64,000 nt of DNA. Origin: Trichormus variabilis 0441 (GTDB lineage Bacteria > Cyanobacteriota > Cyanobacteriia > Cyanobacteriales > Nostocaceae). Location of the stretch: positions 1,362,001-1,426,000 of the forward strand of contig NZ_CP047242.1 in the NCBI RefSeq assembly GCF_009856605.1, given 5' to 3'. The notes under the pieces were generated by a model that did not search any database, had not been told where the DNA came from, and saw only the letters and a program-made list of their open reading frames with translations. Each line of letters begins with the position of its first letter. Position 1 is the stretch's first letter. Position numbers and translations under genes: made by a program. This document shows, one piece after another, positions 19,027 through 32,228 of the stretch.

Positions 19027-19497
19027 TTTTGCTAAAAATAGCACTTTTCTATGTGATGAAGTATATCGGCAAATTTGCCATCATTTATCCACAGCAATCT
19101 AATTCTAGCCCTGCAATTACTAAAGTAAACAGGTAATAGCAAGAATAAATAAAGCTATCTTCAGGGTACTAAGCATTGTACAAAAATTAAATTAGATTTC
19201 TAATCTTAATAAAAATTAACTAAAATCCGACTTCTGTTGAAATAATTAATATTACCGGAATTTATAAAAAAGTTAATTATATATTTTATTTAGAGATTTT
19301 CCTTCCCTAGCTAAGTTAGGATATTCTCTTTTAGAGGTATAGCTTATATTTAAATAATAATTCCGGCTAATTACTGACTAAGAGCTTTTATTTTTGACAA
19401 AGATTGATATTATAAAGGGTTAACTTGCCGCTAATTTAAAAACTAAATATAATTGATAGTAATTCATGATGTAATTGAATTAATTTCTGATATAAGC
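19027..19497. other. AT-rich intergenic region before the NACHT gene
   Basis: 470 bases of low GC content with runs of A and T, no ORF and no strong hairpin. It probably carries the promoter of the NACHT gene. Nothing else is visible. Confidence 0.4.
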
Positions 19498-21819
19498 ATG
19501 GCTAAACGATCGCTCCAAGCCTCGGATGAAGGTATTAGGAAGGCCAAAAAAGCTTTTAATCATAAAGGTTGGACACAAGAATATCTGGCCAGTCAAGTTG
19601 GACTAGATAGTCGCCAACCAATTTGGAAGTTTTTTTCTGGCAAACCTGTTGCCAGACATATATTCCATGAAATTTGCTTTAGCCTAGCCCTAAATCCAGA
19701 AGAGATTGTTCAAACACTAGAATTTGAACCAGATGAACACTTAGAAACCCAGCAGATACTAGAAGGTCAAGACTCTACTGTCATTGAATCTTTAGTGAAT
19801 AAAATACGTGCTGCCCACTCAGAGAAAATTCAAAATCAATGTGGTACTATCCGGTTGTTAGATGTTGCACGTACAGTAGAATTAGATGAATTATTTATTG
19901 AGGTCAATGTATTAGAAGAAATTACTAGTCAAAGATGGCTAGATATTGCAGAGTTACAAAAGTCCGATGATAAAGCTTTAAACGAATTTTTATTAGAGGA
20001 AGTTACTACTAGAAAAATCACAGGATTACTAGCAATTGAGAAATTTTCTAAGCTTTTTGTCTTTGGCAATCCAGGAGCAGGAAAAACTACGTTTCTACAA
20101 TCAATCGCTACACTTTGTAATCAAGGTAAATTTCAGCCTCAACGTGTTCCTATTTTTATTAGCCTGAAAGATTTTGCCGAAAATATCAACTATGATGAGA
20201 AAAACCCTTTGTTAAGCTATTTAATTGAAGAATTAAGTATTTGCAAAATCGCTCAACAGGAAGTAGAAGAGTTACTTCATGAAGGTAAAGGTTTAATTTT
20301 ACTAGATGGATTGGATGAAGTTGCAGATAAACATACGGAAAAAATCAATAAAACAATTAGTATTTTTTTAGAGATTTTTTATAAAAATTCAGTAATTATC
20401 AGTTGTCGAATTGCATTCAGGCATCAAAAGTTTAAAGGGTTTGCTGAAGTACAGATTTCTAAATTTACAAAATCACAAATATCAGATTTTGCTAATAAAT
20501 GGTTTACAGCTTTTGCTAAAACTAATACCCGATTCAGGAAAACATTAGCATCTAAATTTATTGATAAAATAACACTTCCCGAAAATCGATTAATCCAAAA
20601 TCTAGCATACACACCTATTTTATTAAATCTCACCTGTTTAGTATTCCAATATCTAGGCGATTTTCCTACTAAGCGTTCTGAAATTTATCGGCAAGGATTA
20701 GAGCTATTACTAGTACGTTGGGATGAAGCCAAAGGAATAAAAAGAGATGAAGTTTACGCTAATTTAACCTTATCTCAGAAAATTAAGTTACTTAGTTATA
20801 TCGCCGTCACTTTTTTTGAGAAGGGAGATTACTTTTTTGAAGAAAATATCATTTGTCAATTAATAGCTGACTTTTTATATCTGTTACCAAATGCACCAAC
20901 TGATTTAGAGGATTTACGAGTAGATAGTAAAGCTGTGCTTAAAGCAATAGAGTTACAGCATGGATTATTAGTTGAACAAGCAAGAGGAATTTATTCCTTC
21001 TCTCATTTAACATTTCATGAATATTTTACTGCCAGATTTATTGCTAACAGCGACAATAAAAAATTAGAACAAGTTGCTGATTATTTAGTTGACAATCGAT
21101 GGCGTGAAGTTATCTTACTCACAGCAGAAATTATCAAATCATTTGAGGATTTATTCCAGTTAATCAAGGAACAAATTGATAAGTTAGCAGTTGCAGATGA
21201 AACAGTAAAACTTTTTCTCACTTGGGTCATGGACAAGTCCTCAATAGTTATTTCCAATTATCATTCATCTGCTGTACGTGCTTTTTACTTTACCCTCGTC
21301 TTACCTCCCGATTATGCTTTATCACGTAACCAAACTCTAGCTACAGCTTTAGATAGTCATCTAACAGGAAAACTAGCTGATGATTTAGCTTTGGATTTAG
21401 CTTTAAGTTATATTTTTGCAGTTAGCATTTCTTTGACTCCAGAGCTTTTCTGTAAGCGTATATCTGCTCTCAAATTAGCTCTTGATATTGATTATTTATT
21501 ACAGTCATATTCATCTTTAGATGAATCTCTGCAAAACCTCAAACAAGAATTACCTAGTTCACAACAAGATAAAGAGATATTAAAAGCATGGTGGCAATCT
21601 AATGGGCAATCTTGGACGACACAGTTAAAGGAATTGATCAAAATACATCGCCAAATGGATTGCGCTTGGCAATTTAGTGAGAAACAATTACATTTAATTC
21701 AAAAATACTGGGAGGCAAACAACTTATTAGTATATTGTTTTAACACCGCTAGCAATGTTACTCCCAATTTGAAGGAAGTTATTAAAGAAGCTTTGATTCT
21801 GCCTCCAGCGCAAAAATGA
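19498..21819 (+). CDS. HTH-NACHT STAND NTPase, candidate defence protein
   Basis: 773 residues from ATG 19498; an in-frame TTG at 19453 would add 15 residues without any domain. Residues 5-65 look like a helix-turn-helix (WTQEYLASQVGLDSRQPIWKFF then HEICFSLALNPEEIV). The NACHT ATPase follows: Walker A GNPGAGKTT (K196), Walker B LILLDGLDEVAD (D270, D273/E274), and the sensor region ISCRIAFRHQKF. A helical winged region follows, including SHLTFHEYFTARFI, a motif typical of bacterial NACHT proteins. The C-terminal 130 residues form a helical domain ending NLKEVIKEALILPP, as in other cyanobacterial NACHT proteins. Bacterial NACHT proteins include anti-phage factors. A phage-defence role is inference: there is no effector such as a nuclease or TIR in this protein. 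Confidence 0.82.
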   Translation: MAKRSLQASDEGIRKAKKAFNHKGWTQEYLASQVGLDSRQPIWKFFSGKPVARHIFHEICFSLALNPEEIVQTLEFEPDEHLETQQILEGQDSTVIESLVNKIRAAHSEKIQNQCGTIRLLDVARTVELDELFIEVNVLEEITSQRWLDIAELQKSDDKALNEFLLEEVTTRKITGLLAIEKFSKLFVFGNPGAGKTTFLQSIATLCNQGKFQPQRVPIFISLKDFAENINYDEKNPLLSYLIEELSICKIAQQEVEELLHEGKGLILLDGLDEVADKHTEKINKTISIFLEIFYKNSVIISCRIAFRHQKFKGFAEVQISKFTKSQISDFANKWFTAFAKTNTRFRKTLASKFIDKITLPENRLIQNLAYTPILLNLTCLVFQYLGDFPTKRSEIYRQGLELLLVRWDEAKGIKRDEVYANLTLSQKIKLLSYIAVTFFEKGDYFFEENIICQLIADFLYLLPNAPTDLEDLRVDSKAVLKAIELQHGLLVEQARGIYSFSHLTFHEYFTARFIANSDNKKLEQVADYLVDNRWREVILLTAEIIKSFEDLFQLIKEQIDKLAVADETVKLFLTWVMDKSSIVISNYHSSAVRAFYFTLVLPPDYALSRNQTLATALDSHLTGKLADDLALDLALSYIFAVSISLTPELFCKRISALKLALDIDYLLQSYSSLDESLQNLKQELPSSQQDKEILKAWWQSNGQSWTTQLKELIKIHRQMDCAWQFSEKQLHLIQKYWEANNLLVYCFNTASNVTPNLKEVIKEALILPPAQK

Positions 21820-21842
21820 ATCAATTCAAGATTTAACAAAAT

Positions 21843-21869
21843 ATAGAAGTTGAAGTCCCCGGCTTCTAT
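21843..21869. repeat. Small inverted repeat between convergent genes
   Basis: ATAGAAG (21843-21849) pairs with CTTCTAT (21863-21869) around a GC-rich centre containing GTCCCCGG. It lies just after the NACHT stop codon. It may be a terminator or a remnant of a transposon end; no transposase remains nearby. Confidence 0.45.
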
Positions 21870-21904
21870 CAAACCGCCAGTGTTGTGGCTCTTTCTGTCT
21901 TACA

Positions 21905-21939
21905 AAGTTCAGAGCGCCTGCTTCCGGCGCTCTGAACTT
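21905..21939. terminator. Strong 14-bp hairpin between convergent NACHT and AAA genes
   Basis: AAGTTCAGAGCGCC (21905-21918) is perfectly complementary to GGCGCTCTGAACTT (21926-21939) with a seven-base loop TGCTTCC. It sits between two convergent genes and probably ends transcription on both strands, although neither side has a good T-run. Confidence 0.6.
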
Positions 21940-22017
21940 GGGGCTAAATCGTCGTTACAACACGGAAAAAGCGAATTGCCTTAGGGTTAGCCTTGCCATA
22001 GGCTATTGCGAATTGGT

Positions 22018-23859
22018 TTAATCTGGACGCTGTTCTGTGAGAACTTTATAAGCATAGTTGAAATCATCAGTAGTAATCTTGATTTCAGAAGGGTCTGTCA
22101 ATCCTTGGGAGCGAAAACGACGAATTGCTTCTACCGCCGCTTGATTGCACAGTAAAGTTAAATCTGCACCATTCCAATTTTTAGTCATCTCTGCCCAATA
22201 GTTGAAATCCACACCTTCCAAGGGTCGTCCTTGACTATGGACTTGGAGAATCGCCAGACGACTAGCTAAATCTGGTAAATCTACCTTCATTTGTAAATCT
22301 AAGCGTCCAGCCCGTAACAAAGCCGGGTCAAGGGCATCGGGTCGATTTGTTGCCCCAATTACTAAAATAGTACTCCCTACTTCTATGCCATCCAACTCTG
22401 TGAGCAATTGTCCAACTACGCGATCGCTCACTCCCGAATCACCACTGAAACTACCCCGCGCTGGAGCTAAGGTATCAATTTCATCAATAAATACGACACA
22501 AGGCTCTGCTTGACGCGCTTTGGCAAATAACTCCCGTACTGCTTGTTCACTTGCACCCACCCAACGGCTGAGTAATTCTGGGCCATTGACACCAATAAAA
22601 TTAGCTCTGGCTTGGGAAGCAACAGCTTTAGCTAATAAAGTTTTTCCTGTCCCTGGTGGCCCCCATAATAAGATGCCTTTTGGTGCTAGTGCTTTGGTTT
22701 GCAGATACAGTTCTGGATATAACAGCGCTCCTTCTACTGATTCCCGTAGGGTTTGCTTAATCGTATCCAAACCACCAATATCGTCCCAGGCGATATGGGG
22801 AACTTCGACTTCCACACTCCGCAGTACAGCTGGTTTGATTTCTTTGAGGGCTTGCAAAAAGTCAACTTGGCTAACCGTCATATTCTCTGGAACTGCACTT
22901 TCAACCGAAGGCATTTGACGGCGCAGAGCAGTATACGCCGCCTTTTGGCACAGGGCTTTTAAGTCAGATCCCACAAACCCCACCGAGCGTTCGGCGATCG
23001 CATCCAGGTCAACCGTGTCTTCCAAAGGCATGGCACGGGTGAGAATTTGCAGAATATCTCTGCGTCCTTTCACATCTGGGACACGAAACTGGACTTCCCG
23101 ATCAAATCGCCCCGGACGGCGCAAAGCTGGGTCAAGATGGTCAGGACGGTTAGTGGCAGCCAGTACAATCACACCTTGACTGTGGGAAAAACCATCCATC
23201 AGGCTTAAAAGTTGGGCTACAAGACGTTTTTCTACTTCCCCTTCTACTGCACTCCGGTCTGGAGCTAGACTATCGATTTCATCAATGAAAATAATACAAG
23301 GAGCATTCTTAGCAGCCTTCTCAAAAATACCCCGCAGTCTTTGCTCGGCTTCACCATAATATTTACTGATAACTTCCGGCCCCACCAGCGCAATATAGTT
23401 AACACCAAGTTCCTCAGCTAAACCACGAGCAGTCAGAGTTTTACCAGTACCAGGAGGCCCAACTAAAAGTACACCCCGCGTAGGTTCCAATCCTAACTTT
23501 GCCAGTAAATCAGGGCGTTTTAAGGGAATAGCGATTAATTCTTTAAGTTCTTTAACAACCTCACCCAGTCCGCCAACATCTTTCAAGGAATTACCGGAAG
23601 GCGCATCTGGTGGAACAACAACATCAGAAGTGTCTCCATTCCCTGAATCAGAATTAGGAGAGGGTTGGGTGCGAATACGGCTTGTACCAATATCATTAGC
23701 CATATTATTAGGACGCGGGATATTGCCAGTCCGAGGAATACTACTCATAGAACGAGAGTTAATCTGGAAATCGGTTTTAATTTCTCCTTTCTCGGCTTTT
23801 TCCTCTAAAGTTTTGACTAATTCAATTAACTGTTCAAATCCCTTGAATAAATCACTCAT
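22018..23859 (-). CDS. Cdc48/VAT-like double AAA+ ATPase of the gas-vesicle cluster
   Basis: 613 residues with two AAA+ modules. D1 has Walker A GPPGTGKT (134-141) and Walker B IIFIDEIDSLAP (about 189-200), with the NRPDHLDPALRRPGRFDRE arginine-finger block. D2 has GPPGTGKT (400-407), VVFIDEIDTLAP and NRPDALDPALLRAGR. Instead of a Cdc48 N-domain there is a 90-residue start: a short amphipathic helix (LFKGFEQLIELVKTLEEKAEK) and a low-complexity Ser/Pro/Asn linker. AAA+ tandem ATPases of this class unfold or extract proteins. It is the last gene of the minus-strand set gvpW, ArsA-like, AAA, 42 bases after the ArsA-like gene. A role in handling aggregated or misassembled GvpA-type protein is inference. 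Confidence 0.88.
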   Translation of the reverse strand: MSDLFKGFEQLIELVKTLEEKAEKGEIKTDFQINSRSMSSIPRTGNIPRPNNMANDIGTSRIRTQPSPNSDSGNGDTSDVVVPPDAPSGNSLKDVGGLGEVVKELKELIAIPLKRPDLLAKLGLEPTRGVLLVGPPGTGKTLTARGLAEELGVNYIALVGPEVISKYYGEAEQRLRGIFEKAAKNAPCIIFIDEIDSLAPDRSAVEGEVEKRLVAQLLSLMDGFSHSQGVIVLAATNRPDHLDPALRRPGRFDREVQFRVPDVKGRRDILQILTRAMPLEDTVDLDAIAERSVGFVGSDLKALCQKAAYTALRRQMPSVESAVPENMTVSQVDFLQALKEIKPAVLRSVEVEVPHIAWDDIGGLDTIKQTLRESVEGALLYPELYLQTKALAPKGILLWGPPGTGKTLLAKAVASQARANFIGVNGPELLSRWVGASEQAVRELFAKARQAEPCVVFIDEIDTLAPARGSFSGDSGVSDRVVGQLLTELDGIEVGSTILVIGATNRPDALDPALLRAGRLDLQMKVDLPDLASRLAILQVHSQGRPLEGVDFNYWAEMTKNWNGADLTLLCNQAAVEAIRRFRSQGLTDPSEIKITTDDFNYAYKVLTEQRPD

Positions 23860-23901
23860 AACATCACTCCAAAAATCTCAAAAATCTTACTTTTTTTATG
23901 T

Positions 23902-25809
23902 TTATCTTTTATTAGCAGTTAATTCTTCGACTTCAAATAAAAGACTAGCAGCACCTTTAACTCGGTCTATAGCCTCCACCGAACGGGGTAATCCAGGTAG
24001 GCGAATCATAGTTTGTTCTGGAAATAAACTATGATCAATTTCCACTTCTGGACTATAGCGATTCTGAACTATATAACGCTGATTAACCCCCATATTTTTT
24101 AAAGACTCTGTTAAGCGTATATGTTCAGATACGATAGCTACTTCTGACTGAATTACACCAATAAATTGAGTATGTTGAGAATTCTTTAACTTCTTTTGTG
24201 CTTGTACAACTTGTTGACGTAAATTTCGTAACCGTCCCATGAAGTCCACTCTACCCAAAACATCTTGATACTTCAGCCACAGTTTAAATATCCAAGATAA
24301 CCAATCACCTAAAGCCGATGGCATTTCTAAAAATCTCAGAAGATGACCTGTTGGCGCAGTATCTAAAATGATTAAATCTTGCTGGTTACTATCTAACAAA
24401 TCCATCACAGTAATTAGAGATAGCATCTCATCAATACCCGGTAAAGCTTGAGACATAATCTGTCGCCACGCCTCAGGCACATAAGCAACATTCACGGTTG
24501 TATCTGCTTGTGAACCTTCGCCACTAATCATATCTGCTAATTCCCAAAGATAATCTCTACGGAATTGTTCTAAAACTCTGTTAGCATCAATTTCTTGCCC
24601 ACACAAATTTGAGCTTAAAGATATAGGTTCATGGCCTAAATCCTTCCCAAAAGCATCTCCTAAAGAATGTGCTGGGTCTATAGAAATTACCTGAATCTTT
24701 TTATCTGGATGTTGTTGAGCAGAAGCCCAAGCTATGGCGGCGGCTACCGTTGTTTTCCCTACACCTCCTTTACCACCGATAATAATTAGTTTGCATTCTT
24801 CGTTGATAAAATCATGAAAGCCAGGTAAAACTTGAGCAGGCCATTGAATAAGTGGTGGTGGAACAAGTTCAACACTAGCAATTTTTTGAATCTGAGATGC
24901 CAGAGAATCTAATGCCACCCCACCTAAAGGTTCTACTCTTTGTTGTGGTACGATAAAAACAGGCTGATTAGTATGAAGATTTAAGTACTTATTCAGTAAA
25001 TTTTGTTGTTCAGCGTAACGGTCTAGTTCTAACTCCGAATTTAGTAAAATGTGATTAATAAATAATCCAGCGTAGGGAACATCTAAAGTTTCTAGGCTAT
25101 TTAAAAATCGCTCAGTTTCATAAAAACACATGGGTTCAGAAATACCTACCACCAAACAACCAGTAAATTTTTCATCTTGCAGTAAGCGTCTACCTTCTGC
25201 TAGTTGATGTTTCATTTCTACTAAAAAGCTATCGACTTCATCAGCCGTATAACTACCTTTAAAACTTTGAGTAATTACCCGATGTTTTTCCTGAAATAGT
25301 TCTAAGGAATTTAAAATAACATCTAAAAAATCTTTGAGGCGTAATAAATTTAAGGTATGACCAGAAGGAGCCATGTCTATAATTACACGATCCGCCTCAT
25401 TTTCAGCTAGTAGACGCTGAATTTCTAGCAAACCCATTAATTCATTCAAGCCGGGCCAGTTTAAATCCCAGACTGGTGCTAAATCACCTCCATCAGCTAA
25501 ACTGCCTCTCTCCACGAGTATTTCTAAAAAGTAACTATATTTTGCTTTAAATTCCAACAACAGTTTTTGAGCATCCAACGCCTGAACACTCAAGTTAGGT
25601 AAGTCTGTCACTGCTAATGCAATATCTTTAACTTCCGATTGCAATACATCACCTAAAGAATGTGCAGGATCTGTAGAAATTAACAGAATTTTTTCTTGAG
25701 GAAACTTTCTGGCCCAATAACGTGCAAAGCTGCAAGAGATGGTAGTTTTACCAACCCCACCTTTGCCACTAAACATAACTAGATGCAATGAATCATAGTA
25801 GTCCATCAT
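23902..25809 (-). CDS. Tandem ArsA/Get3-family ATPase of the gas-vesicle cluster
   Basis: 635 residues made of two fused ArsA/Get3-type halves. Each half starts with the deviant P-loop of this family: FSGKGGVGKTT (14-24) and IGGKGGVGKTT (about 341-350). Each also has a STDPAHSLGD or SIDPAHSLGD switch I and a DMAPSGHTLNLLRL or DTAPTGHLLRFLEM switch II. No arsenite-exporter or arsR gene is nearby, and the family's arsenic-binding cysteines are not evident. Get3/TRC40 relatives shield hydrophobic membrane segments, so a chaperone or targeting role for hydrophobic gas-vesicle proteins fits the location between gvpW and the Cdc48-like gene. That role is inference. Ends 42 bases before the AAA ATPase start. 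Confidence 0.85.
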   Translation of the reverse strand: MMDYYDSLHLVMFSGKGGVGKTTISCSFARYWARKFPQEKILLISTDPAHSLGDVLQSEVKDIALAVTDLPNLSVQALDAQKLLLEFKAKYSYFLEILVERGSLADGGDLAPVWDLNWPGLNELMGLLEIQRLLAENEADRVIIDMAPSGHTLNLLRLKDFLDVILNSLELFQEKHRVITQSFKGSYTADEVDSFLVEMKHQLAEGRRLLQDEKFTGCLVVGISEPMCFYETERFLNSLETLDVPYAGLFINHILLNSELELDRYAEQQNLLNKYLNLHTNQPVFIVPQQRVEPLGGVALDSLASQIQKIASVELVPPPLIQWPAQVLPGFHDFINEECKLIIIGGKGGVGKTTVAAAIAWASAQQHPDKKIQVISIDPAHSLGDAFGKDLGHEPISLSSNLCGQEIDANRVLEQFRRDYLWELADMISGEGSQADTTVNVAYVPEAWRQIMSQALPGIDEMLSLITVMDLLDSNQQDLIILDTAPTGHLLRFLEMPSALGDWLSWIFKLWLKYQDVLGRVDFMGRLRNLRQQVVQAQKKLKNSQHTQFIGVIQSEVAIVSEHIRLTESLKNMGVNQRYIVQNRYSPEVEIDHSLFPEQTMIRLPGLPRSVEAIDRVKGAASLLFEVEELTANKR

Positions 25810-25846
25810 GAAATTAAAAATTCCTTGATAAATTTATTAGTAGAAA

Positions 25847-26530
25847 TTAAACAAAATGATAGGGTGGTAGTGGTTCTCCCAAGATTAAATTCCAATGAGG
25901 ACATTTCTCTTGTAGCGTTAACACTTGTTTGAAGAGTAAAGCTTTATCATGGCGATCAACTAAAAGATGAAGACGTACTTCTTCTACATAATCTTGAATA
26001 ATTGCAGATGAGCGATAAATATCCATCATTAAATTGATCAGATGATGTTTCTCCCTATTTTGATCACCAATAAAGCTTTTTTGATGCTCATAATGCAATT
26101 TTTTCGCCAAAAAATAATCTCTTCCATGTCCCCCTGATATCTTGGCAAGTTCTTCAAATTTACGAGGAATGAGCTTTAAAGTATATTCTGTTTTCCCTTG
26201 AATATTATCGAGTTTCTTTTGATATTCTTGAGCATGAGACTCTATATGATTTAGCAATGTCTCTTCGGAATTGAAATAAGTGCCAAAACGCAAAGGTAAA
26301 ACTGTTGTCTGCTGAGATAGCTCACAAATGACGCGATCGTGAGCTAAAACCATTTTAATAACTTCTTCATCATTATTTTGACTAGATTCTAAGGATATTC
26401 CAGGTTCTACGACGGCTGAGATATTATTGCCATTAATCAGGAGTAATTGACCTAGATTGCCAGATGGTAGACGTAAAGGAACATCAGGAGTATTTAAAAA
26501 AGCATAAGTGTAAAAATTTGGCGATCGCAT
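25847..26530 (-). CDS. gvpW: Gas-vesicle GvpF/GvpL-family protein (GvpW)
   Basis: 227 residues of the GvpF/GvpL family: an N-terminal half with VIKMVLAHDRVICELSQQTTVLPLRFGTYF, matching the conserved VLPLRFGt core, and a C-terminal helical half ending LQEKCPHWNLILGEPLPPYHF. In Anabaena clusters the second family member next to gvpV is called GvpW, and the position here fits. GvpF/L proteins are accessory factors in gas-vesicle nucleation. It starts at ATG 26530 in a HIP1-like sequence and heads an apparent operon with the ArsA-like and Cdc48-like ATPases. It is divergent from gvpV. The exact letter (W versus L) rests on context. Confidence 0.82.
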   Translation of the reverse strand: MRSPNFYTYAFLNTPDVPLRLPSGNLGQLLLINGNNISAVVEPGISLESSQNNDEEVIKMVLAHDRVICELSQQTTVLPLRFGTYFNSEETLLNHIESHAQEYQKKLDNIQGKTEYTLKLIPRKFEELAKISGGHGRDYFLAKKLHYEHQKSFIGDQNREKHHLINLMMDIYRSSAIIQDYVEEVRLHLLVDRHDKALLFKQVLTLQEKCPHWNLILGEPLPPYHFV

Positions 26531-26682
26531 TATTCCACCCAGGTAAAAAACTTAAGTATTCTATTTTATTGCTATCAGAACAAATATCTTGTCATATAAA
26601 TAGAAAAAATGCTGAATTTGATTAAATCATTTACATCCTTAAAATCTTAGTTATAATGCTATCAATTATTCAGGTATTTCCT

Positions 26683-26997
26683 ATGACAAAAGTACGTAAT
26701 CGGGGCATAATCAGACCTAAAATCACCACAATGCCTAGAACTAAATCTGAGGCTTCCAGCCAATTAGAACTTTACAAGTTAGTAACAGAACAGCAGAGAA
26801 TCAAACAAGAGTTGGCTTTCATCGAACAAAGGACAGTACTACTTAAGCAACGATTATCTACGCTTAAAACTCAGATAGAAGGGACAGAAAGAAGTATTAA
26901 TAATTTACGTCATCCTGAAGCAAAACCTTCTCGGATAGCACTCCCAAAAATATTCCGTGAAACCAATAATTACCAAGCTTTTGATATCGAATATTAA
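26683..26997 (+). CDS. gvpV: Gas-vesicle accessory protein GvpV
   Basis: 104 residues from ATG 26683 (an upstream in-frame ATG at 26656 would add nine residues that do not match the family start). The basic N-terminus VRNRGIIRPKITTMP and the coiled-coil body (about 25-80, EQQRIKQELAFIEQRTVLLKQ) match the small cyanobacterial GvpV proteins. It is the only gas-vesicle gene on the plus strand inside the cluster, facing gvpG and divergent from gvpW. It ends just before an intrinsic terminator. The biochemical role of GvpV is not established beyond being part of cyanobacterial gas-vesicle clusters. Confidence 0.8.
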   Translation: MTKVRNRGIIRPKITTMPRTKSEASSQLELYKLVTEQQRIKQELAFIEQRTVLLKQRLSTLKTQIEGTERSINNLRHPEAKPSRIALPKIFRETNNYQAFDIEY

Positions 26998-27003
26998 ACT
27001 ATT

Positions 27004-27024
27004 AACCCGCGAAAGCGGGTTTTT
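27004..27024 (+). terminator. Intrinsic terminator of gvpV
   Basis: AACCCGC-gaaa-GCGGGTT followed by further Ts lies seven bases after the gvpV stop. Stem, GNRA-type tetraloop and T-run make a classical rho-independent terminator on the plus strand. Confidence 0.85.
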
Positions 27025-27121
27025 AATAGTTCAATTAAACTGATTAATAGCTAAGCGCACATAGACAAAGTTTGTAGTAAAAACTTGTCCCTAAGGGCTG
27101 CAAATCTCAACTAACACCTAA

Positions 27122-27499
27122 TCAAGGTGATAAAACTAGATCCTCATTATCTTCGTATTCTTCGCTAAATCTAGATTGCTCTTGATAAACTTGATTTTCT
27201 TCAGATGCTAATATAAAAAGAGGTTTTACCTCTAAATCATCATCTTCCTCAGACTCTGCATTAAGGCGCTCTTCTTCTGCTAAAGCTTGAATTTTTAAGA
27301 GAATCTCTTCTTCTTGAATATCAAATTCTTCTTCAGAAATTTCGCCCATATCAAATTTTAATTGCAGACTTAACAATTGTTTATGTAGATTTTCTTGAGC
27401 ATCAAATTCAGTATTGGTACGTTCTTGAATTTGTTCTCCAATCCACATAAGTCCATTAATTGGCCCCATAACAGGCAATAACAAGATTTTACCTAGCAT
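27122..27499 (-). CDS. gvpG: Gas-vesicle protein GvpG
   Basis: 125 residues from ATG 27499. This start, not the longer frame that overlaps gvpF, is supported by a GGAG nine bases upstream, directly behind the gvpF stop, and by the family start MLGKILLLPVMGPINGLMWIG. The central helix carries LLSLQLKFDMGEISEEEFDIQE, the conserved GvpG core. The C-terminal third is strongly acidic (EDDDLEVKP, then YEDNEDL). GvpG is a small accessory protein needed for gas-vesicle assembly in other systems. It is the last gene of the gvpA-to-gvpG run. Confidence 0.88.
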   Translation of the reverse strand: MLGKILLLPVMGPINGLMWIGEQIQERTNTEFDAQENLHKQLLSLQLKFDMGEISEEEFDIQEEEILLKIQALAEEERLNAESEEDDDLEVKPLFILASEENQVYQEQSRFSEEYEDNEDLVLSP

Positions 27500-27512
27500 T
27501 CTATGACTCCTA

Positions 27513-28247
27513 TCAAGAAATTTGAGCAAATGTATAAGGTGCTGTAAAGTTGTTGTAGCGAATGCGTAAACGTTCACCGAATTTATGATCAATAGCTTCG
27601 ACTTGTTGGCTAAATATAGATTCGTTTTCCCAAGGAATTAAAAATGCCGCATTATAAATCATGTCTTCTGTCATTGGGTCACTTTCAATAACCTCATCTG
27701 CTAAGGGTTTTAGCTCATCAAAAAAGGCTTGAATTATAGATTCCTTGCGACTGAGTAAATTACTTTCAATTAATTGTCCAATTTGTATTACCTCCTCCAT
27801 ACTTAATGCCTTTCCTTCCATTTGGTCTCGCTTCTGTTTTAAGTCTTGATGAGAATCCATCATGGCTTGTAATTCAGCTTTGCTATCCCAAAAAATCTTC
27901 ACACTAACCTCCCGTCGCCCAGCTAGTTTTTGGAATAGCTCTCGTAATTGTGCTTTATATGGTTGAAGTAGTTGTGTAACCACAGTTTCCCAATTTTTTA
28001 CAACTAGTCCAAAACGCAAGGGTAGCAAAGTTCTAAATCCAGCGTGCATCGCTTGTTCTAATACCTTTTCATGGCTGATTAAATTTCGCCGAGATGCTAG
28101 ATATTTTTCTTGTTGTGCTTCTGAATATAAAAACGTAAATCCATCAATAACTTGACTATAGACAAGTTGAGAATCCAATCCTTGAAGAGCAACTGTTTCT
28201 GGGATTGGATCGGGAAAAATGCCGTATAGATAAAGACCAGAACTCAT
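27513..28247 (-). CDS. gvpF: Gas-vesicle protein GvpF (GvpF/GvpL family)
   Basis: 244 residues. The family's N-terminal ferredoxin-like half starts GLYLYGIFPD and contains the conserved ISHEKVLEQAMHAGFRTLLPLRFGLV block. The C-terminal helical half follows, with FLIPWENESIFSQQVEAI near the end. GvpF binds GvpA and is thought to help nucleate the vesicle. It lies between gvpK and gvpG, the order known for Anabaena. The stop is 13 bases before the gvpG start, so the two are translated from one message. Confidence 0.9.
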   Translation of the reverse strand: MSSGLYLYGIFPDPIPETVALQGLDSQLVYSQVIDGFTFLYSEAQQEKYLASRRNLISHEKVLEQAMHAGFRTLLPLRFGLVVKNWETVVTQLLQPYKAQLRELFQKLAGRREVSVKIFWDSKAELQAMMDSHQDLKQKRDQMEGKALSMEEVIQIGQLIESNLLSRKESIIQAFFDELKPLADEVIESDPMTEDMIYNAAFLIPWENESIFSQQVEAIDHKFGERLRIRYNNFTAPYTFAQIS

Positions 28248-28352: not shown

Positions 28353-28826
28353 TTACAACGGTCTTGAGGTTAAAACTAAGCGCAATTTAGCATGAATGAG
28401 ATTGAGTTGAGCTATACCTAAATCTACTTCACCATCTACAACAATTCCTGTGTTTAATAGACGATCTAGCAGTTCCAGCACAGAAGGTTTATTTCCTATT
28501 TCACCCGGATAATAAGATCCTGGGGAAGGTAAAAGAGTACCGACATCACCTAAATTTATATTTAAGTCTGCGGGTTCAATCTCAAAAATATGGCACAGAT
28601 TTAGAACTTGTTCTTCTAGTTTTTGCAAACTTTCACTTGCTTGTTCTAACTCAGATTCACTAAGACATTCCTGTTCCATGCGCCGAATTACTTGTGCCTC
28701 CATCAGCTGGCGTATTAGTTCCACTACGGTCAAAAGTAAAGGAGCTAAACCTGCTTTGCTGTTAGCTTTAGAAGTGGTAGGTAGCAAATTAGGAGACTTT
28801 TCAACTGGAGTAAAAACCATTGTCAT
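28353..28826 (-). CDS. gvpK: Gas-vesicle protein GvpK
   Basis: 157 residues. The N-terminal 30 are polar; the GvpK core follows with LLTVVELIRQLMEAQVIRRM, then a Glu-rich helix, DLNINLGDVGTLLPSPGSYYPG, and a C-terminal segment (LLDRLLNTGIVVDGEVDLGIAQL) that resembles the GvpA fold. GvpK is one of the accessory proteins kept in all gas-vesicle clusters. A second ATG two codons in is equally possible. The gene sits about 140 bases after gvpJ and 105 before gvpF. Confidence 0.9.
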   Translation of the reverse strand: MTMVFTPVEKSPNLLPTTSKANSKAGLAPLLLTVVELIRQLMEAQVIRRMEQECLSESELEQASESLQKLEEQVLNLCHIFEIEPADLNINLGDVGTLLPSPGSYYPGEIGNKPSVLELLDRLLNTGIVVDGEVDLGIAQLNLIHAKLRLVLTSRPL

Positions 28827-28969: not shown

Positions 28970-29416
28970 CTAAGCCTCAAGTTGGGAGTCATCTCCCTCT
29001 TGACTATTTACTTCATACATTGGTTGCACATTTTCTGGATAGTTAACTGTTAATCTATTCTCTTCTTTCACGGCAGATGTGAGTAAACGTAGTTGTGTTT
29101 CTAGACTTTCTAGCCGTTGTTGTAGTTGTTGATTTTCTTCAACTAAACGTTGCGATTTGCTACTAAGATAGGGGTCATTTTCCCACCAATTGATACCCAT
29201 TTCACGGGCTTTATCAACTGAAGAAATTAACAGACGAATCCTAATATGTATGAGTTCAGTTGAGGCGATAGATACGGAAATATCACCAGCAATCACAATG
29301 CCTTTATCCAAAACTCTTTCGAGAATATCTGCTAAGGTGGAACCTTGTGTAGAAGTGGGAATTACTCGATTTGAGTTAGTCGGAGGACGTGTTGGGTGTA
29401 TTGGGGTAGTAGTCAC
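28970..29416 (-). CDS. gvpJ: Gas-vesicle minor structural protein GvpJ
   Basis: 148 residues with a GvpA-like core (about 26-75: [18 protein letters not shown], then [22 protein letters not shown]). A C-terminal extension with a coiled coil follows ([18 protein letters not shown]) and an acidic tail. GvpJ is a minor GvpA homologue thought to form part of the conical tip or the nucleation complex. It starts with GTG at 29416, overlapping the gvpN stop by four bases (GTGA), which implies translational coupling. About 140 bases follow before gvpK. Confidence 0.88.
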
Positions 29417-30669
29417 GGTTGATTCGGCTCTTCAATGGTATATACATGATTGTTCTTGCTGACTAAGCCTTTCTGCTCTAAAGAGTTGAGAGCGTTGGTA
29501 GCTACAGTCCGACTGAGTTCAAATTCTTGTTGAAGTAGAGCTAAAGCTGCACTCTTGTACTGTTGTAAGTAGAGATAAATTTCCCGCTCAAATGGAATAG
29601 AATCTTCCACACCTGGTTGTTCGAGAACTTCAGAATCAAGAGTACCAAACTGAGAATCGATGATGGTAGGAAACCCGCTTTCGTTGATCGCATTGTGATC
29701 TTCGTCTGCGATCGCATCCGTATCCTCTGATGTAATACTATTCTTGAATTCCTCTATTTCCTCTAAGTTCAGATGATTCAGTAATTCAAGGAAAATCGTT
29801 GTAGCTTCGCTAGCAGACCAATTCGTGCGGTTGAACAGCACATCTGCACAGATTTCTCGAAAATCAGAGCTTTCTGGTGCAACTAAAATATTGTGTTCGG
29901 CACATACCTTAGCAATCATCAAACAAGACCGCAAGCCAGAAGTCTTTTCCCCACCTGTACGTGAGCGAAATGCTTTCACCAATTGCACGACTAACAGCGC
30001 ATCTGCTCTATTGAGTGCGGTTTTCTGAGCTAATATCTCAGTTTGAGTTAGCTCATCCGGCTCTGGCATATTAATAGTTACCAACCGATCCATTAAAGCA
30101 TCCTGCGTCGAGTGGACTCCGCAGTACTCTTCTGGATTAGAGGTAAAAATAGCCCGAAATTGGGGATTAACGTGCAAGTATTCTGGCTGATTACTACTAG
30201 GAGGAAGAGTCAGAATTTTTTCTTCCAAAGCTGATAGTAAGACGTTATTCACTTCCGGTCTAGAACGGTTAAATTCGTCGTAGACCAAGGTGAAGCCTTC
30301 TCTACAAGCTAGAGTTAGTCTAGAATCGACCCAATTTTGTTTAAATTCGTCTTCGACTTTGAGAACACTGTGAATGTAATTGTCCAGTAACTTTTTATGG
30401 GTATAACCGGATTCACTACCAATCAAATCAGAACTTTTAAATTCATCATCTCCGAAAATCAACATGATTGGTCTATCCAAACAGTTAGCCAAGTGCATGG
30501 CTAAAGTTGTTTTTCCTGTACCGGCTGGACCCCGTAAGTGAATAGCAAATCCTGATGTCAGATAACGTAACGCCCGAATTGCTACCTGCTCAATGGCAGG
30601 TGTAACAACAAATTGACCGGGACGGACGCGGAGAACAGCTCTTTTCTTATTATTTGCAGTCAGAGTCAT
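29413..30669 (-). CDS. gvpN: Gas-vesicle AAA+ ATPase GvpN with C-terminal winged-helix-like tail
   Basis: 418 residues. The MoxR-type AAA+ domain has Walker A GPAGTGKT (47-54), [28 protein letters not shown] as the Walker B/sensor block, and [23 protein letters not shown]. GvpN binds and hydrolyses ATP and promotes vesicle growth. Beyond the usual core the protein carries an acidic linker (about 305-355) and a last 60-residue helical segment ([30 protein letters not shown]) that resembles a winged helix. The start is ATG 30669, preceded by a 426-base gap to gvpC that holds several inverted repeats. The stop overlaps gvpJ. Confidence 0.92.
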
Positions 30670-31095: not shown

Positions 31096-31485
31096 CTAAA
31101 ATGTGCCAAAAATACTAGCAAACAAATCCTTACGAAATTCTTGCAGATATTGACTTTGTGCCTTGGCTTGCTCAGTTCTGTTTTTTGCTGTTTCTGCTAG
31201 AAACTCCTGGGTGGTCTGCTCTAGATTTTGGCGAAACTTATGCAAAAACTTTGCCTGTGCTTCTGCTTGAGCAACCCTTTGTTTTGTAGTTTCTGTTAAA
31301 AACTCGTGGGTTGTCTGCTCCAGGTTGTGGTGGAACTGATGTAGCTCTTGCGCTTGCTTTTTGGCTTGCTCTTGTCTTTGTGCCGTTGTAGCGGACAAGA
31401 ATTCATGAGTCTCTCTAAATAGTTGAGTTACTTCCTCAGCTATTGACCGATGCTCTTGCCGGATTTTTACCATTAAAGCCATCAT
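31096..31485 (-). CDS. gvpC: Gas-vesicle outer protein GvpC, short form
   Basis: 129 residues. GvpC binds the outside of the GvpA shell and stiffens it. The start [18 protein letters not shown] and the end [14 protein letters not shown] match cyanobacterial GvpC. Between them lie two full 33-residue repeats (29-61 and 62-94, each starting FLxxTxxxR and ending LEQTTxE) and a partial third (95 onward). GvpC of Anabaena flos-aquae has five repeats, so this one is short. The first codons are ATG ATG, with GGAGA six bases upstream. It follows the second gvpA copy by about 210 bases, including a stem-loop. Confidence 0.92.
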
Positions 31486-31692: not shown

Positions 31693-31908
31693 TTAAGCAG
31701 GCATAGCGGCGGATTGTGTTAGACCTACAGCTTCTGCATATTTCAGGTAGGTTTCCACGGAAGCAATTACGATACGAGCTTCGATTGCAAGTAGTTCAAT
31801 ACCAACTAGAGAAACACGTACCCAAGCATCTACAACGATACCTTTATCTAAGATACGGTCAATAACTTCTGCCAAGCTTGAAGAAGAATTAGTTTTTTCG
31901 ACTGCCAT
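31693..31908 (-). CDS. gvpA: Gas-vesicle major structural protein GvpA, second copy
   Basis: 71 residues, the main shell protein of gas vesicles: [21 protein letters not shown], then [20 protein letters not shown] and [10 protein letters not shown]. This is the highly conserved GvpA sequence with its beta-hairpin flanked by helices. It differs from the copy at 32013 by four bases and one residue (Ile instead of Val in EARIV-I-ASV). A purine-rich AAGG lies ahead of the ATG. The gene is followed by a stem-loop and then gvpC. The duplicated DNA includes about 10 bases after and 20 before the coding part. Confidence 0.98.
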
Positions 31909-31957
31909 GATTTTGTACCTTAAGCTATTGTTGTGTTTACATTTATCTGGTCGGGAG

Positions 31958-31997
31958 TAGAATATCTTAATTTACTATTAGGAATTAAGATATTCTA
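31958..31997 (-). terminator. 15-bp perfect hairpin between the two gvpA copies
   Basis: TAGAATATCTTAATT (31958-31972) and AATTAAGATATTCTA (31983-31997) are perfectly complementary around a ten-base loop. The stem lies 15 bases after the first gvpA stop. It is AT-rich with no T-run, so partial termination or 3'-end protection of a monocistronic gvpA message is more likely than full termination. Confidence 0.65.
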
Positions 31998-32012
31998 GAA
32001 TCTACTTAATAA

Positions 32013-32228
32013 TTAAGCAGGCATAGCGGCGGATTGTGTTAGACCTACAGCTTCTGCATATTTCAGGTAGGTTTCAACGGAAGCAACCACGATACGAGCT
32101 TCGATTGCAAGTAGTTCAATACCAACTAGAGAAACACGTACCCAAGCATCTACAACGATACCTTTATCTAAGATACGGTCAATAACTTCTGCCAAACTTG
32201 AAGAAGAATTAGTTTTTTCGACTGCCAT
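32013..32228 (-). CDS. gvpA: Gas-vesicle major structural protein GvpA, first copy
   Basis: 71 residues, first gene of the gas-vesicle operon. It is the same protein as the copy at 31693 except for Val in [13 protein letters not shown] lies about ten bases before the ATG, and a promoter with good -35 and -10 boxes is visible at 32301-32329. GvpA packs as ribs to form the gas-filled shell. Two near-identical copies in tandem raise output of the most abundant subunit. Nothing separates them but a hairpin. Confidence 0.98.

Follow-up and report, generated by a model that had tools for sequence, protein, structure and literature searches.

Two ATPase genes accompany gas-vesicle genes in cyanobacteria and Chlorobi and may encode a dedicated proteostasis module

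In the sampled cyanobacteria and in the order of the Chlorobiaceae, two ATPase genes go with the gas-vesicle (gvp) genes, even where they are not linked to them. We describe both from Trichormus variabilis 0441, in a 64,000-nucleotide stretch of contig NZ_CP047242.1 (positions 1,362,001 to 1,426,000), hereafter the window, to which all coordinates refer. The first encodes a tandem Get3/ArsA-type ATPase of 635 aa with two P-loops (GV-Get3; 23902–25809, minus strand; Pfam ArsA_ATPase in two stretches, 342.8 bits) and the second a Cdc48-like double-AAA ATPase of 613 aa without the Cdc48 N-domain (GV-Cdc48; 22018–23859, minus strand; Pfam AAA in two stretches, 307.5 bits). They follow gvpW (25847–26530, minus strand; GvpL/F family; GvpL_GvpF, PF06386, 114.5 bits) head to tail, with gaps of 37 bp and then 42 bp. 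A previous sequence-only reading had placed this trio inside the gas-vesicle region with gaps of about 40 bases; the order and spacing hold, and the trio proves to close the gvp cluster at its downstream end instead of lying in the middle of it. The data suggest that both ATPases help build or maintain gas vesicles, and we put at roughly 0.55 the probability that they form a gas-vesicle-dedicated proteostasis (holdase/unfoldase) module, by a mechanism that we infer.

Distribution of the two ATPase genes

We searched 146 cyanobacterial genomes, each at least 90% complete, for GvpA, GvpN and the two ATPases. GvpA (PF00741) was found in 23 of them, and GvpN exceeded its cut-off in those same 23. 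The GV-Get3 gene was present in 23/23 gvpA-positive and 0/123 gvpA-negative genomes (positives at least 783 bits, next best match 91 bits), and the GV-Cdc48 gene in 22/23 and 0/123 (positives at least 855 bits); the runner-up of the latter search, at 209 bits, was a single stretch within a 644-aa frame whose size suggests FtsH. Only eight first-look candidates per ATPase were scored in most of the large genomes, so that a missed close relative is possible, if unlikely. Fisher tests, which ignore relatedness, gave p values of 2.7e-27 and 3.3e-25, respectively, and in the four genera with mixed gvp status (g1, g4, g16 and g17) GV-Get3 follows gvpA in 4/4 and GV-Cdc48 in 3/4.

The two genes are arranged head to tail in 14 of the 22 cyanobacterial genomes that carry both, as divergent neighbours in 3, within the same cluster in 1 and apart in 4. 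Because GV-Get3 lies more than 20 kb from gvpN or on a different contig in 5/22 genomes, and the ATPase genes are apart in 4/22, linkage fails to explain their co-occurrence with gvp genes. In Lyngbya sp. HA4199-MV5 (L062) they form a divergently oriented pair; the 22-kb stretch around it shows no recognised gvp gene, and gvpA lies elsewhere in the genome. In genome G093, the GV-Get3 gene is full length and about 3.5 kb from gvpN.

A second sample comprised 61 genomes from the order of a Chlorobiaceae metagenome-assembled genome (MAG; L069/G153), searched with Chlorobi queries. GvpA was detected in 24 of them. GV-Get3 was present in 19/24 gvpA-positive and 0/37 gvpA-negative genomes (at least 286 bits, next 132; Fisher 1.4e-11), and GV-Cdc48 in 20/24 and 0/37 (best piece at least 495 bits, next 206; Fisher 1.7e-12). 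Neither gene was thus found in any of the 160 gvp-negative genomes sampled (123 cyanobacterial and 37 of the Chlorobiaceae order). The earlier proposal of a tie to gas vesicles, which had named occurrence in genomes without gvp genes as evidence to the contrary, is borne out by the counts of 0/123 and 0/37. Get3-type and Cdc48-type proteins act in general proteostasis elsewhere, and the two could in principle be general stress chaperones that travelled with gvp islands and have no vesicle-specific role; we give this little credence, as they were not found in any sampled gvp-negative genome of the two groups and are kept when unlinked from the gvp core.

The genes also extend to other phyla. 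GvpA was found in just 4/229 genomes of the class of Thiohalocapsa (L065/G149, a gammaproteobacterium). Thiohalocapsa itself carries hsp20, Cdc48-like and tandem ArsA-type genes, as does Candidatus Scalindua (G163), and the other three gammaproteobacterial gvp genomes have hsp20 and Cdc48-like genes within the gvp cluster or next to it. In two MAGs titled Deltaproteobacteria and Labilithrix, a tandem ArsA-type gene adjoins gvpG, with no Cdc48-like gene within the stretch read. A contig scan with an 18-protein ArsA-type alignment and a generic P-loop pattern returned at least 80 loci, most of them other ArsA-family genes that served for comparison only. Eight loci (L062–L069) carry GV-type genes, and another (L135) has a single weak gvpN match; gvpA occurs in 13 of the 20 genomes behind contig-scan loci, including all 8 behind the GV-type loci. 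The anammox planctomycete Candidatus Scalindua (L172, L173) has several tandem-size ArsA-type genes, spread over contigs C9, C26 and C199; gas-vesicle domains, too, occur on C9 and C199.

GV-Get3 resembles Get3 and lacks the metalloid site of ArsA

The window protein scores 343.4 bits with TIGR00345 (Get3/TRC40/ArsA superfamily; cut-off 135) and falls below the cut-offs of the NCBIfam ArsA models TIGR04291 (176.2 of 650 bits) and NF041417 (185.4 of 800 bits). Both halves keep the nucleotide motifs of Get3 and ArsA: a deviant Walker A with the signature lysine, switch I DPAH and switch II APS/TGH. The metalloid cysteine positions C113, C172 and C422 are occupied by W, T and G, with cysteine in 13/13 ArsA rows and 0/6 GV rows of the alignment. 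The ArsA/Get3-type assignment of the sequence-only reading is supported: the protein has two P-loops, is Get3-like and lacks the arsenic-binding cysteines. In one cyanobacterial protein (L024, genome G125) the N-half switch I is degenerate (STSLVSS in place of STDPAHS), so that one ATP site may be dead and the other intact.

Downstream of switch II, GV domains carry a long hydrophobic segment in the region that in Get3 binds clients; it spans 56–64 residues, compared with 61–81 in 13 other Get3-like single-domain proteins and 36–49 in ArsA. In the C half, residues 502–515 (24265–24306, minus strand; DWLSWIFKLWxKYQ) form a near-invariant aromatic/hydrophobic predicted helix at the position of the Get3 client-binding helices. 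The N-half signature K(H/Y)R...SF.G.YT.DEAD (residues 171–196; 25222–25299, minus strand) also occurs in the single-domain proteins of Chlorobi. The C half aligns with yeast Get3, yet is six residues shorter at the TRC40 insert, and the fold of the N half is closest to Get3. The cyanobacterial alignment comprises 18 of the 23 proteins, mostly without near-copies.

In a quick tree the ArsA-type proteins from gvp genomes form one clade; it included eight hand-picked cyanobacterial tandem proteins and excluded two Scalindua tandem proteins in which the second P-loop pattern was not found. The tree favours, without proving it, an independent origin of the GV and ArsA tandems. Forcing all N halves together cost 25.4 log-likelihood units (approximately unbiased test, p 0.076), and forcing the ArsA and GV tandem halves together with the Chlorobi single-domain proteins outside cost 3.8 units (p 0.40).

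Two other identities can be weighed here. An ordinary arsenite pump ATPase lying near gvp genes by chance would agree with the overall fold, which is that of ArsA, and with the annotation of Nodularia nsp15480, labelled ArsA, lying next after the gvp genes nsp15380–15470 and grouped with arsenate-related genes (PMC3610870). The loss of all three metalloid cysteines, the sub-threshold ArsA scores (176 of 650 and 185 of 800 bits) and the occurrence in 23/23 cyanobacterial genomes with gvpA and 0/123 without it make that explanation very improbable, and plain arsenic ArsA identity was rejected on the cysteines and the model scores. Alternatively, GV-Get3 might not be a holdase at all, acting instead in vesicle positioning or partition, as ParA-type ATPases do for other bacterial organelles. 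Both fall within one broad deviant-Walker-A class, and ParA partition and MinD profiles match below their cut-offs (60 of 180 and 40 of 212.9 bits), to be set against 343.4 bits with the TRC40/GET3/ArsA model (cut-off 135). The N-half fold is closest to Get3, and scanning a subset of the window proteins revealed no recognisable ParB-like partner; we consider a positioning role improbable.

The N-terminal tail of GV-Cdc48 resembles that of gas-vesicle Hsp20 proteins

GV-Cdc48 contains two AAA rings, each with a Walker A/B set. The loops K166-Y-Y-G in D1 and W433-V-G in D2, which we take to be aromatic pore loops, are invariant in the 19 aligned rows (19 of 22 cyanobacterial AAA proteins, mostly without near-copies). 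The invariance of these loops and the retention of both Walker motifs make a threading ATPase likely, in agreement with the earlier assignment to the unfoldase type. The protein scores 660.4 bits with TIGR01243 (CDC48), below the cut-off of 802.65, and its closest Protein Data Bank (PDB) match is the VCP-like ATPase 5g4g (610 bits), presumably archaeal VAT, with human p97 at 529 bits. No second protein of this type was seen among the cyanobacterial matches listed, the others matching one ring only. The C terminus, QRPD, has no HbYX motif, the sequence that mediates proteasome docking.

The Cdc48 N-domain is absent from GV-Cdc48 and present in the two Chlorobi relatives and the one archaeal relative aligned. 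In its place, a predicted structure (6 alignment rows; mean predicted local distance difference test, pLDDT, 72.0; predicted template modelling score 0.45) shows about 90 residues mostly with pLDDT below 50, beginning with a low-confidence helix at residues 2–23. A short amphipathic helix substituting for the N-domain had been anticipated from the sequence, and this description is upheld. Residues 1–50 (23710–23859, minus strand) comprise an amphipathic LFKG helix and, after it, SSIPRxGNIPR; the 19 cyanobacterial rows keep, allowing for some variation, the pattern LFKGFEQLLELAKTLEEK...GE.KTD...SSIPRxGNIPR; in the window protein only 0.5% of shuffles were as amphipathic.

This tail resembles that of small heat-shock proteins (Hsp20) encoded in gvp clusters. 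A profile of it was run against 2292 open reading frames (ORFs) of gvp regions, drawn from other phyla and from one Microcystis, and after the Microcystis self-copy the next matches were seven gas-vesicle Hsp20 proteins, three of which pass the inclusion threshold (E 0.0036 to 0.0091). Ten of 12 gas-vesicle Hsp20 proteins outscore all 24 other Hsp20 proteins from an overlapping genome set (area under the curve, AUC, 0.96), a value reached by 0/200 column shuffles (maximum 0.89); the gas-vesicle set is small and related, and the three queries behind it were first noticed partly through the tail itself. It comprises all proteins found by whole-protein phmmer in the gvp stretches read, with the L183 protein trimmed to an internal Met and the L172 protein aligned minus its first 70 residues. 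The controls were 24 of the 25 matches outside gvp stretches (L209 excluded), one of which, L219, is possibly in the wrong reading frame. In the reverse direction, with a profile built from the 12 Hsp20 tails, every one of the 26 GV-Cdc48 ORFs (of which L032 and the window copy are one gene) outranks the rest of 1293 cyanobacterial ORFs, with 7.9 to 16.6 bits against 4.3 for the next. Profile–profile comparison of the two tails gave a probability of 78% over 21 columns with 43% identity, compared with 0.7% for the control Hsp20 proteins. Five Hsp20 proteins from two gvp-positive cyanobacteria reach at most 1.2 bits with the tail profile. A database search with residues 1–90 recovered, in the best 120 of 295 proteins, nearly only proteins of about 610 aa with AAA domains, some 99–100% identical to the window protein over this region; Hsp20-sized proteins were undetectable in it.

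In 8 of 12 gvp stretches (L068, L069, L172, L177, L183, L185, L188 and L191), the hsp20 gene immediately precedes the Cdc48-like gene or the ArsA-type/Cdc48-like pair; the two are further apart in L187 and L182, and L186 and L189 have hsp20 with no Cdc48-like gene in the stretch. Since gas-vesicle Hsp20 proteins share it, the N-terminal helix looks like a gas-vesicle-specific tag. The earlier suggestion that the helix could dock on gas-vesicle proteins gains support from these proteins as far as its tag-like character goes. The simplest reading is that the cyanobacterial gene arose by fusion of an hsp20 start onto a cdc48 core; a docking helix reached by convergence would give the same picture.

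Proposed roles and alternatives

The motifs imply that GV-Get3 and GV-Cdc48 are nucleotide-driven machines, whereas their clients, their order of action and the balance between assembly and turnover are what we infer. In the proteostasis module that we favour, GV-Get3 would pick up the very hydrophobic GvpA/GvpJ-type subunits after synthesis, shield them and pass them to an assembly site based on GvpF/L/W. The tail would bring GV-Cdc48 to misassembled or aggregated Gvp proteins, which it would thread out for reuse, so that one protein might unite the jobs of the separate Hsp20 and Cdc48 proteins of Chlorobi, gammaproteobacteria and Scalindua. Haloarchaeal GvpH is reported to prevent aggregation of the GvpA relative GvpM and to pull it down as a monomer, and its loss leads to weaker vesicles (PMC9501494, PMC7688916). 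If the tail binds the same client as GvpH, GV-Cdc48 would reach and unfold misfolded Gvp proteins. The module would improve vesicle yield and quality and would not be essential for making a vesicle.

Several observations weigh against this reading. Among the sampled gvp-positive cyanobacteria, G093 alone lacks a GV-Cdc48 gene. In the Chlorobiaceae order, GV-Get3 was not found in 5/24 gvp-positive genomes (second query best 71 to 92 bits) and GV-Cdc48 in 4/24, absences that are unsure because some of these genomes may be partial assemblies. No ArsA-type match whatever was obtained in 3/4 gammaproteobacterial gvp genomes. The gvp stretches read from Nocardia and Haloquadratum contain neither ATPase gene, and gas vesicles as such therefore do not require them. 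The tail match is short (21 columns) and its helix is modelled at low confidence. In HEK293T cells, A. flos-aquae gvpA plus gvpNJKFGWV, a gene set without either ATPase gene, was enough for a vesicle signal. Vesicles were also detected in Escherichia coli carrying the A. flos-aquae cluster, though too few for phase contrast (PMC10344784). The accessible text of a review of Gvp proteins makes no mention of ArsA, Cdc48 or Hsp20 and calls GvpV and GvpW non-essential (PMC9501494), and GvpF has already been proposed as a GvpA chaperone (PMC11445434). The HEK293T result, the silence of the review and the GvpF proposal together make both ATPases at most helpers there.

It follows from the distribution that the ATPase module is widespread and not universal, and that its two ATPases can separate. 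An obligate pair was rejected, as GV-Cdc48 occurs without GV-Get3 in 3/4 gammaproteobacterial gvp genomes and each ATPase gene has gaps, in G093 and in the Chlorobiaceae order. The holdase and unfoldase of the sequence-only reading thus do not survive as an inseparable couple, three of the four gammaproteobacterial genomes having a Cdc48-like gene and no ArsA-type match.

The main rival is disassembly or recycling, in which the pair would dismantle collapsed or unwanted vesicles, for instance at a buoyancy reset, with GV-Cdc48 pulling GvpA from the ribs and GV-Get3 catching the freed hydrophobic subunits. Cdc48 relatives extract subunits from assemblies, and the tail could have the shell, not only free subunits, as its target. 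A vesicle signal without ATPase genes in HEK293T cells (PMC10344784) also fits a role after assembly, whereas the neighbouring Hsp20 and the reports on haloarchaeal GvpH suggest that aggregation is prevented while vesicles assemble. Assembly and disassembly cannot be told apart from the present evidence; on balance, we regard disassembly as unlikely, albeit a serious contender.

A bolder version of the proteostasis module is offered tentatively. It combines GET-like delivery to a protein shell, with GV-Get3 escorting a tail-anchor-like GvpA to the growing rib, a portable 'gas-vesicle tail' and the fusion origin. Whether attached to a small heat-shock protein or to a Cdc48-type unfoldase, such a tail would lead its carrier to one and the same client. 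The cyanobacterial form would have arisen when the start of hsp20 fused to the cdc48 gene next to it, the alpha-crystallin domain and the Cdc48 N-domain both being lost.

How the very aggregation-prone shell protein GvpA is kept soluble and built into ribs is an open problem, for which two named, deletable ATPases and one short tag are now candidates. Human cells have their own TRC40 and p97; laboratory E. coli is not known to have either. Most of 15 clusters tried in E. coli failed, and the authors allowed for a need of further genes outside the annotated operons (PMC10344784). The ATPases offer a possible reason for these failures and for the weak function of the A. flos-aquae cluster there, and supplying both genes could improve acoustic reporter genes. 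If the proposal is true, Get3-type chaperoning extends from membranes to a protein-walled organelle. The two ATPases, encoded next to genes for a bacterial flotation organelle, resemble a chaperone and an unfolding machine known from archaea and human cells.

The gvp cluster and neighbouring genes

The minus-strand order is two gvpA copies, gvpC, N, J, K, F, G, W, GV-Get3 and GV-Cdc48. The gvpA copies (31762–32198; PF00741 search) have Gas_vesicle domains at 31762–31878 and 32082–32198 and are followed by gvpC (31096–31485; Pfam), gvpN (29413–30669; TIGR02640, 408.6 bits, over cut-off), the GvpA-family gene gvpJ (28970–29416; Pfam), gvpK (28353–28826; Pfam), gvpF (27513–28247; NF052351, 390.6 bits, over cut-off) and gvpG (27122–27592; PF05120), which overlaps gvpF and whose real start is probably downstream of the listed TTG. 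Between gvpG and gvpW, on the plus strand, lies gvpV (26656–26997), which has no Pfam or NCBIfam match and is named from position and orientation after PCC 7120 (PMC7204071). Because GvpK carries, behind its GvpK domain, a C-terminal Gas_vesicle domain (PF00741, residues 115–153, 49.7 bits), a GvpA-like segment appears to be built into this accessory protein. Just past GV-Cdc48, on the opposite strand, a 788-aa protein (19453–21819) shows by eye an N-terminal helix-turn-helix-like region and a NACHT-type NTPase; its sole NCBIfam match, antiphage EruA, is far below cut-off (28.9 of 1000 bits). Scanning 21700–27200 for consensus promoters was uninformative and gave five sites, all on the plus strand and fewer than in shuffles.

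Comparison with known systems

The association of ArsA homologues with gvp genes was described in four phyla by Castillo and Saier (2010), whose examples include Anabaena variabilis and Nostoc PCC 7120; they suggested that the homologues act in vesicle biogenesis and also noted Hsp20 (PMC2963123). Their gvp-associated homologues, clusters 4 and 6, are of the same family as GV-Get3; cluster 4 lists Nostoc PCC 7120 (635 aa), Microcystis and others, with gvp neighbours checked for 4/8 proteins. The accessible part of that account contains no Cdc48-like partner, test on gvp-negative genomes, client-shielding mechanism for this branch or common tail. Within the literature searched, what appears to be new here is the constant Cdc48-like partner, the presence/absence test with unlinked genes, the single-clade Get3-type reading and the common tail. 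In the literature searched, which left most subscription papers and preprints outside its scope, no Cdc48-like partner of gvp genes was met and Get3 was absent from the gas-vesicle and gvp matches listed. Among the Cdc48 matches listed, the sole paper joining gas-vesicle and Cdc48 terms is a transcript profiling of Halobacterium, and in the accessible text of PMC6107691 Cdc48 appears only as a protein bound non-specifically to a nickel matrix.

Archaeal and eukaryotic Get3/TRC40 (PDB 3zq6, 4xwo and 2woj) serves tail-anchored membrane clients, whereas GV-Get3 has two halves in one chain outside Chlorobi, no known membrane receptor and, putatively, shell proteins as clients. The best PDB sequence match of the window protein is Chlamydomonas ArsA1 (5zme), a tandem protein and monomeric pseudodimer that lacks CXXC and carries tail-anchored proteins (PMC11170914); it is like GV-Get3 in its tandem build and differs in serving chloroplast tail-anchored proteins, with no gas-vesicle link. 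From the arsenite pump ATPase ArsA (PDB 1f48 and 9nbw), GV-Get3 differs in the missing metalloid cysteines, the scores below the ArsA model cut-offs and the longer post-switch-II segment in both halves. Haloarchaeal GvpH, with its reported anti-aggregation role, offers a functional parallel to the bacterial gas-vesicle Hsp20 proteins, with kinship not presumed. The VCP-like ATPase 5g4g has the same double AAA core with aromatic pore loops in both rings; GV-Cdc48 differs in having the Hsp20-like tail in place of the Cdc48 N-domain and in scoring below the CDC48 cut-off. The gas-vesicle Hsp20 proteins, finally, have an N-terminal tail like that of GV-Cdc48, which lacks their alpha-crystallin domain and bears the tail fused to a putative unfoldase.

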